NCBI RefSeq assembly: GCF_009709575.1
Contig: NZ_WIXO01000001.1
Coordinates: 3,908,001-3,972,000, forward strand
DNA from: Streptomyces taklimakanensis
GTDB lineage: Bacteria > Actinomycetota > Actinomycetes > Streptomycetales > Streptomycetaceae
DNA length: 64,000 nt
Reading direction: 5' to 3'
In this document: positions 61,168 to 64,000 of the stretch, in pieces
Layout of the letters: the number at the start of each line of letters is the position of its first letter
Position numbering within the stretch: the first letter of the stretch is position 1
The notes under the pieces: generated by a model
The model's input: only the letters and a program-made list of their open reading frames with translations
Told to the model about the DNA's origin: nothing
Databases searched by the model: none
Position numbers and translations under genes: made by a program

Positions 61168-61220
61168 ACGGAATGAATCGCTCCGGAGGTCTTCGCGGAG
61201 ACTGTTGCGAACCTGCCGGA

Positions 61221-61259
61221 AAAATAGTTTGCGCGCGCCGTGCGAACCCCCATAGCCTT
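61221..61259 (+). promoter_or_regulatory. Candidate WhiB7-type promoter of the whiB7 leader
   Basis: AT-rich AAAAATA (61221-61227) directly before the -35 TTGCGC (61230-61235), then CATAGC/TAGCCT -10 at 61252-61259. An AT-rich patch next to the -35 is the known binding feature of WhiB7 with its AT-hook. It implies self-activation, with a leader of about 550 bases. Confidence 0.6.
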
Positions 61260-61264
61260 CCGGA

Positions 61265-61303
61265 CATGGAAGAGCGGGGCCTGGTGGCTCCACCACTTCC
61301 ATG
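61265..61303 (+). ncRNA. 5'-terminal stem-loop of the whiB7 leader
   Basis: CATGGAAG pairs with CTTCCATG (61265-61272, 61296-61303), with an inner GGTGG/CCACC helix. It would lie at the very 5' end of the transcript. Confidence 0.55.
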
Positions 61304-61376
61304 CTGTACTGAACCCCGAACGCCCGGATCGACACACCGATCGATCCGACGAGACGCCGAGAGGAGGCGAGCTTCG

Positions 61377-61685
61377 ATGACCACCATGATCACGACGGAA
61401 CCGGTCGGCCGCGACGGCTTCGCCTCCTGCCTGTTCGACACCGGTGTCTTTGGGGCCGACGCCTTTGGCGCCGTGTCCGCGCGTCCGAGCCTCTGCTCGA
61501 CCCTGCCGATCCGGGAGCGCGTCAGCGAGCGACCGACCCAGGCACCTGCGGTAGCGACCGTGGCACAGGCGGACACCTATGCCCTTGCCGGCATCGCGGC
61601 CAATGGTGCCGACAACGGACAGAAGCAGGCACAGCACCACATGTGGGCCTTCCGTGGGCTCGAACCCTGGAGAGATCCAGCCTGA
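61377..61685 (+). CDS. Upstream ORF (102 codons) in the whiB7 leader
   Basis: ATG with AGGAGG nine bases ahead. Sequence: MTTMITTEPVGRDGFAS at the start, HHMWAFRGLEPWRDPA at the end. No domain, no signal. First half shows high GC in third positions; later codons are constrained by the hairpins they form. Its stop (61683-61685) lies within the attenuator and its last codons are the antiterminator strand. Likely a regulatory ORF sensing ribosome speed; it may still make a stable peptide. Confidence 0.65.
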   Translation: MTTMITTEPVGRDGFASCLFDTGVFGADAFGAVSARPSLCSTLPIRERVSERPTQAPAVATVAQADTYALAGIAANGADNGQKQAQHHMWAFRGLEPWRDPA

Positions 61686-61754
61686 TCGGCACGATCAGGT
61701 CGGCACCTTCCAGGGCCGCGGAACCCACACCGGGATCCGCGGCCCTTCTGTTTT
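61665..61754 (+). promoter_or_regulatory. Transcription attenuator before whiB7
   Basis: Three successive hairpins: 61667-61680 (GAGA loop), 61681-61699, and the terminator stem 61713-61722/61736-61745 followed by TTCTGTTTT. CCCTGGA at 61665-61671 can instead pair with TCCAGGG at 61709-61715, which takes three bases from the terminator. Such a switch matches ribosome-mediated attenuation of whiB7/wblC. Confidence 0.75.
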
Positions 61755-61817
61755 CCACAAGCGGCCCGGCCACCAGCCGGGCCGAAGAGACGACGCACAG
61801 ACGAGGAATTCACCGCC

Positions 61818-62180
61818 GTGCACATCCAGACGCACGCCCCGTCCGTACAGCCCGACCCGATCCGACCGTCCGATTCCACGGAGGACTCCTTGACCGCCCT
61901 CACCACGCTCACCGAGCTGGACGACGCCATCGAGCGTCTCGGTGTGGCCGTGCCCTGCCGCAGCTACGACCCGGAGGTCTTCTTCGCCGAGTCGCCCGCC
62001 GACGTGGAGTACGCCAAGTCCCTCTGCCGAACCTGCCCGCTGCGCGAGGCCTGCCTCGCCGGCGCCAAGGACCGCCGTGAGCCCTGGGGGGTCTGGGGCG
62101 GTGAGCTGTTCGTCCAGGGGGTCGTCGTTCCCCGCAAGCGGCCGCGTGGCCGTCCGCGCAAGAACCCGGTCACGGCATGA
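61818..62180 (+). CDS. whiB7: WhiB7/WblC redox-sensitive transcriptional activator
   Basis: 120 residues. Fe-S cysteines C47, C70, C73, C79; the WhiB turn GVWGG (91-95); C-terminal AT-hook RPRGRPRK (108-115). With the main sigma factor it turns on resistance and ribosome-protection genes under translation-targeting antibiotics. GTG start with GAGGAA nine bases ahead; a second start, TTG at 61888 with GGAGG, would remove the first 23 residues. Stop overlaps the next gene by ATGA. Confidence 0.96.
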   Translation: MHIQTHAPSVQPDPIRPSDSTEDSLTALTTLTELDDAIERLGVAVPCRSYDPEVFFAESPADVEYAKSLCRTCPLREACLAGAKDRREPWGVWGGELFVQGVVVPRKRPRGRPRKNPVTA

Positions 62181-62500
62181 ACACCACCGGCACGATCGAT
62201 CGTCCCGCGGCACACGGACCCGTGCCGCGCCCCCTCCGGAAGGCGGAACCCGCCATGGCCCTTCGCTCCGAGAACCACGCGAGCACACAGCCCGACATGG
62301 CCGCCTCATGCCAGAACAGGACCCGAGACATGCAACTCATCCCAGAAGCCATGGCCCGCGCTCATATGCACGAACGCATGAGGGAGGCCGAGGCAGAGCG
62401 ACCCGGCCGACGGGTGGTCGTCGCCCGCCGCATGCAGCGCCGCGCCGAACGGGCCTCGATGCGGGCCCGTCGGGCGCTGGCCCTGGCCGTCATGCAGTGA
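62177..62500 (+). CDS. Small basic protein coupled to whiB7
   Basis: 107 residues from the overlapped ATG. Its C-terminal half, from MQLIPEAMARAHMHERMREAE (internal ATG 62330), is a charged helix rich in Arg, with ARRMQRRAERASMRARRALAL near the end; I recall the same helix in other streptomycetes right after wblC. No domain known. An ATGA coupling to whiB7 suggests joint induction by antibiotics. Start may be either ATG. Confidence 0.7.
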   Translation: MNTTGTIDRPAAHGPVPRPLRKAEPAMALRSENHASTQPDMAASCQNRTRDMQLIPEAMARAHMHERMREAEAERPGRRVVVARRMQRRAERASMRARRALALAVMQ

Positions 62501-62630: not shown

Positions 62631-64000
62631 TCAGGCCGAGGTCTCGGCCGGCTCGGCGCCACCGTCGAAGTCCGCGTCCGCCCCGGCCTCCTCCTCCGGA
62701 ACGAAGCCCGGCACCCAGGCCTCCATTTCATCGCGCATCCGGACCCGCGCGTTGAGCTGGCACAGCACCCCGATCGTGGAGAGCGTCACCCGGTGGATCA
62801 GCAGGTAGGACGGTGGCAGGTTGAGCCGCTTGCCCAACTGGTACGCGGGAGAACGAGGATCCCCCACTCGGGTCGCCTGTCCCCGCATCCAGTCACGGGA
62901 GAAGACGAACTCCTCCACCTGTGCCGGCTCGATGATGGGCACGAGGTACTCCAGCACCCCCTCCGGGTCCAGTTCGACCGTCGGCCTGACGAAGCCCTCC
63001 TCGCACAGCAGCTCGTACACGGACTCCGCGTCGCCGTCGAGGGCCATTCGCAGCGCCGTGCCGATCGTCGGAGGCAATCCGCCCGGCAGCCGGTCGACCG
63101 TGCCGAAGTCCATCACGCCCAGCCGCCACCGCTCCGGCGGGCCGTCGGGGTCACCATCGGTCAGCAGCCGGAAGTTCCCCGGGTGCGGATCGGCGTGCAG
63201 CAGGCCCGTGCGGGCCGTGCCGGAGAAGAGGAAACGCGCCAGCAACTGTCCGGCCCGATCGCGCTCCTCGTCCGTGCCGTCCTTGATCACCTCCGCGAGC
63301 GGCACTCCCTCCAGCCACTCGGTGATCAGCACCTGGTCGCACTGGTACACCACGTCCGGCACCCGTACGTCCGGGTCGTCGGCGAACTCCGCGGCGTACG
63401 TCCGCTGGGCGTCCGCCTCCAGTTCGTAGTCGAGTTCCTCACTGATCCGGTCACGCAGCTCCGACACCAGCGGCTTGAAGTCCATGCCCGGGACGAGCGG
63501 CCCCAGAAGTCGGACGAAGCGTCCCAACTGGTTCAAGTCCGACAGCAGTGCCTCGCCGGCGCCCGGGTACTGCACCTTCACCGCCACCGGACGGCCGTCG
63601 TGCCAGACGCCGCGGTGCACCTGGCCTATCGAGGCCGCCGCCGAGGGCTTGTCGTCGAACTCCTCGAACAGCTCCCGCCAGTCCTCGCCCATCCGCTCGG
63701 CCAGCGCGGCGTGCACGGAGGCCACGGGCATCGGCGGTGCCGCGTCCTGGAGTCTGGTCAGCGCCGCCCGGTAGGGGCCGGCCACCTCCTCGGGGAGCGC
63801 CGACTCGAAGACCGACAGCACCTGGCCGAACTTCATGGCACCCCCCTTCAGCTCTCCCAGGACCTTGAAGAGCTGCTCGGCGGTGCGCTGCTGCATCTCC
63901 TGGCCGACCAGCTCCGCGGAGTACCCCCCGATGCGCTTGCCCAGCCCCCAGGTCGCGCGTCCCGCCACACCCAGCGGCAGCGCGGCCAGCTTGGCGGTAC
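62631..64000 (-). CDS. ABC1/UbiB family kinase-like protein, N-terminus beyond the window
   Basis: Frame is open to the right edge; the visible start is TAKLAALPLGVAGRATWGLGKR, so only a short N-terminus is missing. Features: the KxGQ motif (LKGGAMKFGQVLS), AAASIGQVHRG (Ala-rich loop), VAVKVQYPG lysine, HADPHPGNF catalytic loop and DFG in VMDFGTVDR. These UbiB-like atypical kinases act on isoprenoid lipids or quinone metabolism as ATPases. Homologous to Rv3197, which follows whiB7 in M. tuberculosis, where the same protein is linked to drug tolerance. Confidence 0.9.
   Translation of the reverse strand, partial: TAKLAALPLGVAGRATWGLGKRIGGYSAELVGQEMQQRTAEQLFKVLGELKGGAMKFGQVLSVFESALPEEVAGPYRAALTRLQDAAPPMPVASVHAALAERMGEDWRELFEEFDDKPSAAASIGQVHRGVWHDGRPVAVKVQYPGAGEALLSDLNQLGRFVRLLGPLVPGMDFKPLVSELRDRISEELDYELEADAQRTYAAEFADDPDVRVPDVVYQCDQVLITEWLEGVPLAEVIKDGTDEERDRAGQLLARFLFSGTARTGLLHADPHPGNFRLLTDGDPDGPPERWRLGVMDFGTVDRLPGGLPPTIGTALRMALDGDAESVYELLCEEGFVRPTVELDPEGVLEYLVPIIEPAQVEEFVFSRDWMRGQATRVGDPRSPAYQLGKRLNLPPSYLLIHRVTLSTIGVLCQLNARVRMRDEMEAWVPGFVPEEEAGADADFDGGAEPAETSA

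Follow-up and report, generated by a model that had tools for sequence, protein, structure and literature searches.

Published accounts of the actinobacterial whiB7/wblC leaders, which cite Lee, Lee and Roe 2022 and Burian and Thompson 2018, describe an upstream open reading frame (uORF) whose translation promotes a transcription terminator, and an antiterminator that forms from sequences common to the uORF and the terminator when ribosomes are stalled by antibiotics or amino-acid shortage (PMC11550727, PMC10727445, PMC13393426). For mycobacterial whiB7 leaders, RNA-seq, SEnd-seq and Term-seq place attenuation at the end of the uORF (PMC4128351; PMC13236596). The attenuation mechanism is thus already known for whiB7/wblC, and an earlier note on the DNA studied here was right to call whiB7 attenuation known in actinobacteria (PMC11550727, PMC10727445, PMC13393426). 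The attenuators of trp and ilv operons likewise let the position of a ribosome choose between antiterminator and terminator, but they depend on a run of regulatory codons, whereas the whiB7 uORF considered here is long and general and has no conserved run. The uORF attenuators of Streptomyces ARE-ABCF genes also combine a uORF, a premature terminator and an antiterminator with a response to ribosome-targeting drugs; their uORFs, however, have 3-9 codons and serve one drug group (PMC12421871), compared with 102 codons here.

We analysed the whiB7 leader of Streptomyces taklimakanensis within a window of 64,000 nt (the whole stretch of DNA under study) and compared it with more than 200 relatives. 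The region is almost certainly a translation-sensing transcription attenuator of whiB7/wblC. In accounts of the system of Lee, Lee and Roe 2022, the gene, the uORF, the Rho-independent terminator and the antiterminator that shares uORF and terminator sequences are the same as here, and the response is to ribosome stalling, as we propose for this leader. What is documented here for the whiB7 leader is the extent of the antiterminator (about 21 bp), a triple covariation and a candidate element in the middle of the uORF. As in mycobacterial leaders, a stem-loop bearing a T-rich tail lies beyond the uORF; this likeness in layout contrasts with the uORF peptides of other genera, which are unrelated to the Streptomyces peptide.

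Organisation of the whiB7 leader

The leader takes up about 550 nt of the interval that separates whiB7 from a UvrD/PcrA-like helicase gene, and all of its features described below lie on the + strand. The downstream gene (61818-62180, +; GTG start, 120 aa) is of the whiB7 type, its product having a Pfam Whib match (6.3e-15) and an AT-hook-like C-terminus, RGRPRK, and matching best to named Streptomyces records; whiB7 is present in 199 of 199 genomes of the order. Its flanks here are the helicase gene and a MABP-1-like kinase gene, an arrangement that we take to resemble the gene order of M. tuberculosis. The kinase gene, of the ABC1/AarF type, adjoins whiB7 at 62631-63968 on the - strand, and against NCBIfam it scores highest with the macrolide-binding ATPase MABP-1, at 432.9 bits where the cut-off is 800. 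A 107-aa basic ORF (62177-62500, +) overlaps the whiB7 stop codon (ATGA) and is conserved directly after whiB7 in Streptomyces, with which it is possibly co-transcribed; Pfam and NCBIfam gave no family for it, but a search of 148 class genomes with its C-terminal half (MQLIPEALARAHMHERMREAEAERR...RRMQRRAERASLRARRALA) found relatives in 53, often adjoining whiB7.

A putative whiB7-type promoter at 61219-61258 consists of an A/T-rich GAAAAATA directly 5' of the -35 hexamer (TTGCGC) and a -10-like CATAGCCT. Its sequence, AAAATAGTTTGCGC-N16-CATAG, is nearly identical in an alignment of all 30 leaders from the genus. The position of the A/T-rich block agrees with that of the WblC motif 5' of the -35 element (PMC7157823), and the conserved sequence may correspond to the A/T-rich element adjoining -35 of an autoregulated WhiB7 promoter. 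A consensus scanner called neither promoter nor terminator in the leader, the former because its thresholds are unsuited to such a promoter type and the latter because the T tail is interrupted relative to what this simple scanner demands.

Downstream of the promoter come, in order, a 5' hairpin, a Shine-Dalgarno (SD) block, the uORF, three hairpins and a T-rich tail. The 5' hairpin (CATGGA:TCCATG, 61265-61303) is a covarying helix, with double changes at three pairs among 64 Streptomyces leaders. Toward its 3' end the leader is nearly identical among 29 relatives from the genus. The uORF (61377-61685) has an ATG start, 102 codons and the SD sequence GAGAGGAGG. The SD block GACGCCGAGAGGAGGCGA (61353-61370) is almost invariant within the genus, with an exact match in 72 of 80 named Streptomyces loci. 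All 37 same-genus genomes searched have the uORF, in keeping with the earlier description of a 102-codon ORF with a strong ribosome site, and its orthologues are 88-133 codons long in 143 Streptomyces leaders. Among the 100 class loci examined, 96 have a uORF of 52-198 codons (two of these not being whiB7 leaders), and the stop codon lies 18-44 nt, mostly 20-33 nt, 5' of the terminator. A uORF with a ribosome site is therefore kept in the orthologues, and from the SD sequence and this conservation we infer that it is translated.

A predicted terminator and antiterminator share one strand

The last of the three hairpins is predicted to be an intrinsic terminator (61713-61754), with a stem of 10 bp plus 3 bp formed by GGGCCGCGGA/TCCGCGGCCC (61713-61744) and followed by the T-rich tail TTCTGTTTT. 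It folds with -30.6 kcal/mol (z -6.3), unmatched by any shuffle, and both structure and conservation indicate that a Rho-independent terminator lies between the uORF and whiB7. Across the class, the sequence of its 5' arm, (A/G)GGCCGCGGA, hardly varies, which is unusual for an intrinsic terminator. Hairpin 1 (61667-61680), at the end of the uORF, has a GNRA-type loop that reads GTGA, GAGA or GCGA in 74 of 79 Streptomyces, and hairpin 2 (61681-61699) holds the uORF stop codon and covaries both in the genus and in the class. Fold and covariation thus bear out the earlier proposal of a three-hairpin set ending in a T-tailed terminator at 61713-61754. Within the genus most terminator pairs are invariant, and so give no covariation signal there.

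The RNA that ends just short of the terminator 3' arm folds differently, as one long three-part helix that encloses hairpin 2 (61640-61735: -50.9 kcal/mol, z -3.9; all shuffles weaker). In the outer part, TGTGGG (61642-61647) pairs with CCCACA (61724-61729); in the middle part, TTCCGTGG (61650-61657) pairs with CCGCGGAA (61716-61723); and in the inner part, CCCTGGAG (61665-61672) pairs with a strand ending in TCCAGGG at 61715. The 3' strand of this antiterminator (61707-61729) contains the whole 5' arm of the terminator and part of its loop. The elements listed in the earlier note (the ORF, the strands CCCTGGA and TCCAGGG, and the terminator) were all found again where it had put them, and the pairing that it proposed between CCCTGGA (61665-61671) and TCCAGGG (61709-61715) exists and covaries. 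An extent of 7 bp was too small, however, and the claim that three bases are taken from the terminator understated the effect, since in our folding the three-part helix of about 21 bp sequesters the entire 5' arm.

Comparison with relatives supports both structures. In folds of this kind, which stop short of the 3' arm, at least 7 of the 10 bases of the terminator 5' arm are paired upstream in 91 of 100 class loci, four of the 100 being matches other than whiB7 leaders. When inner-helix strands were swapped among 88 non-Streptomyces leaders, own partners paired with -11.7 kcal/mol vs -9.4 kcal/mol for foreign ones (z -9.4), a set that included one wrong-strand match (L064), which can solely weaken the result; with each 3' strand counted once, the z value was -5.0 (n=31). 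This test replaced a first version, whose window lacked the inner helix and gave little signal. The inner helices in these leaders are as diverse as CCUGGAG:CUCCAGG, CUUUGAG:CUCAAAG and CCACGGGG:CCCCGUGG. Double-change cells numbered 74 for the terminator and hairpin 2 (21 in controls) and 90 for hairpin 2 together with the inner helix (46 in shuffles). These counts come from related sequences and so give support and not probabilities; slid controls are well under the observed values. Counts by column over the class are blurred, since Streptomyces and the other leaders are out of register by one base. One Streptomyces leader, L002, carries a linked triple change: C15T in the uORF strand, G84A in the shared arm and C100T in the terminator 3' arm (A1 columns). 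The shared base 84 therefore still pairs with both of its partners, 15 in the antiterminator and 100 in the terminator. The two alternative pairings, whose conservation in relatives the earlier note had made its test, are both conserved and covarying. Folds, covariation and L002 thus agree on an antiterminator that joins the last part of the uORF to the 5' arm of the terminator, as in whiB7/wblC.

Distribution of the attenuator

A covariance model built from 25 leaders detected the attenuator in at least 157 of 297 class genomes and at least 72 of 114 genera, counts that are lower bounds given the stricter filters of the large search. A closer search covered 25 genomes, including 16 that belong to other genera within the family and order, and found a match in every one. 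Among 100 aligned full-length matches from the class, 96 precede a WhiB7-type ORF; of the remaining four, one (L115) is followed by a whiB7 ORF broken up by masked bases; the other three look like plain terminators. The idea that the same attenuator also stands before other genes was dropped, as the matches in question (L133, L134, L138, L139, L140, L163 and L166) resemble ordinary gene-end terminators. A further match, L168, is the genuine leader of whiB7 in its genome. None of the 4227 Rfam models matches the attenuator. The comparison points to a single attenuator, its terminator stem hardly varying, that has been kept across the class while the uORF peptide changed completely.

Constraint on the uORF and alternative explanations

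The C-terminus of the uORF product, MWAFRGxEPW(S/R)DP, is nearly invariant within Streptomyces, and it is this feature that suggests a drug-dependent arrest peptide of the erm/cat type, in which the nascent motif would stall the ribosome in the presence of drug. The codons behave otherwise. At codon 61650-61652, which contributes to the middle part of the antiterminator, 142 of 143 Streptomyces have C at the wobble base (61652), although the first two positions vary (TTC, TAC, CAC, ATC, CTC and ACC), giving F, Y, H, I, L or T; the sole exception is TCT in the compensated L002. This pattern is the reverse of protein-level constraint and is what constraint on the RNA would produce. The Ser/Arg swap at codon 99 likewise retains the GNRA loop of hairpin 1. 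Among the 100 class loci sampled, the uORF peptides have no similarity between genera or families, and the C-terminal motif is absent outside the family. On these codon patterns, the invariance of the Streptomyces C-terminus is best read as following RNA pairing and not the peptide, and we consider an arrest peptide very unlikely. Since the peptide is unconserved between genera, the sensor is therefore taken to be the progress of the ribosome.

An amino-acid-specific attenuator of the trp/ilv type, with starvation stalling ribosomes at regulatory codons of the uORF, has somewhat more in its favour. The uORF is rich in Ala, and responses of whiB7 are described both to amino-acid starvation (PMC11550727) and, in mycobacteria, to alanine starvation (PMC10727445). 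Against this, no run of a single amino acid occupies a fixed place, the peptides are unrelated between families and range over 52-198 codons, and many uORF residues are free to vary among Streptomyces. We regard such specificity as improbable; amino-acid starvation is likely to be one among several inputs. The strong sequence conservation and stable structure could suit a ligand-binding riboswitch or a protein-binding attenuator that merely overlaps the ORF, and the lack of an Rfam match makes an undescribed aptamer conceivable. A ribosome-independent switch, however, needs neither a strong-SD uORF nor a stop codon near the terminator, and nearly all class loci keep both; published work on orthologues also indicates translation. 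This explanation, too, has very little probability in our judgement.

A tentative second element within the uORF

Codons 52-53 of the uORF, CGA-CCG (61530-61535), are identical in 142 of 143 Streptomyces leaders (64 of 64 in one set and 78 of 79 in another), while adjacent synonymous positions vary freely. With the genes of the 64,000-nt window as the reference for codon usage, CGA makes up 4% of Arg codons and CGACCG 2 of 106 Arg-Pro pairs; rare codons account for 17% of the uORF vs 6% of other genes, and A/T third positions for 21% vs 7%. CGA-CCG belongs to the inhibitory codon pairs of yeast. Five nucleotides past it begins a helix between GGCACC (61541-61546) and GGTGCC (61605-61610). All six pairs are intact in 61 of 64 leaders, vs at most 59 in 2000 shuffles, and in 72 of 78 leaders of a second set, with compensatory replacements of A-U by G-C and of C-G by U-A. 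This helix accounts for GCA (56) and GGT (77), two rare codons that are conserved.

It is conceivable, although on balance doubtful, that CGA-CCG and the adjacent helix (61541-61546/61605-61610) form a second regulatory RNA element within the uORF, one that is possibly new and may pace the first ribosome or determine in what order the leader folds. CGA-CCG also has a pairing partner near the 5' end of the uORF (-14.5 kcal/mol for its own sequence vs -11.0 for codon-shuffled ones; better in 55 of 64 species). The presence of this partner in many species weakens the case for a pure pausing signal, and what keeps CGA-CCG may instead be its pairing with the 5' end of the uORF. A longer full-length fold further suggested an anti-antiterminator, GGTGCCGAC (61604-61612) with GTCGGCACC (61699-61707); we rejected it, as species that alter GGTGCC have co-changed at 61541-61546 and not at 61702-61707.

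A proposed ribosome-position switch

In the model that we favour, RNA polymerase would start at the WhiB7-type promoter and transcribe the uORF, which ribosomes would translate. Ribosomes reaching the last 16 or so codons would mask the 5' strand of the antiterminator (61642-61672) and leave the terminator 5' arm free, so that the hairpin 61713-61744 could form and transcription would end near 61754. If ribosomes were stalled, slowed or absent, the 5' strand would capture the whole terminator 5' arm ahead of synthesis of the 3' arm, and RNA polymerase would continue into whiB7. The signal would be ribosome progress along a long uORF with no conserved peptide.

We calculated the effect of ribosome position for five leaders by removing all RNA up to the front edge of the ribosome and folding the remainder to equilibrium, as naked RNA. 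Sequestration of the terminator 5' arm is about 0.8-1.0 without a ribosome or with one at least 17 codons from the uORF end, and drops to 0.2-0.3 with a ribosome ten codons from the end, which puts the predicted switch zone in the last 16 or so codons. With a ribosome nine codons or fewer from the end, about 0.6 of the arm is still paired, with other upstream bases, and because of this pairing OFF is probably a partial or a kinetic state. Equilibrium folding of the full-length RNA gives the terminator even in the absence of ribosomes, and the ON state therefore depends on co-transcriptional order. The earlier note had held that a ribosome finishing the ORF gives termination and one stalled earlier gives read-through; translation-sensing attenuation of this kind is supported, but a leader free of ribosomes favours the antiterminator too, and failure of initiation should therefore switch whiB7 on just as stalling does. 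Read-through in response to drugs is known for orthologues and, by analogy, would be expected in S. taklimakanensis.

Significance for whiB7 regulation

In actinobacteria, intrinsic multidrug resistance is under the control of WhiB7, and the attenuator decides when WhiB7 is made. The comparison maps this switch to base resolution, and its helices and single positions can be tested by compensatory mutation. Being widespread yet without an Rfam entry, the attenuator is a natural candidate for a new family. The mid-uORF element, if real, would keep ribosome and RNA polymerase in step, and the switch would then answer partial inhibition. Finally, a constant attenuator combined with a changing peptide supports a general sensor of ribosome progress over a drug-specific one.
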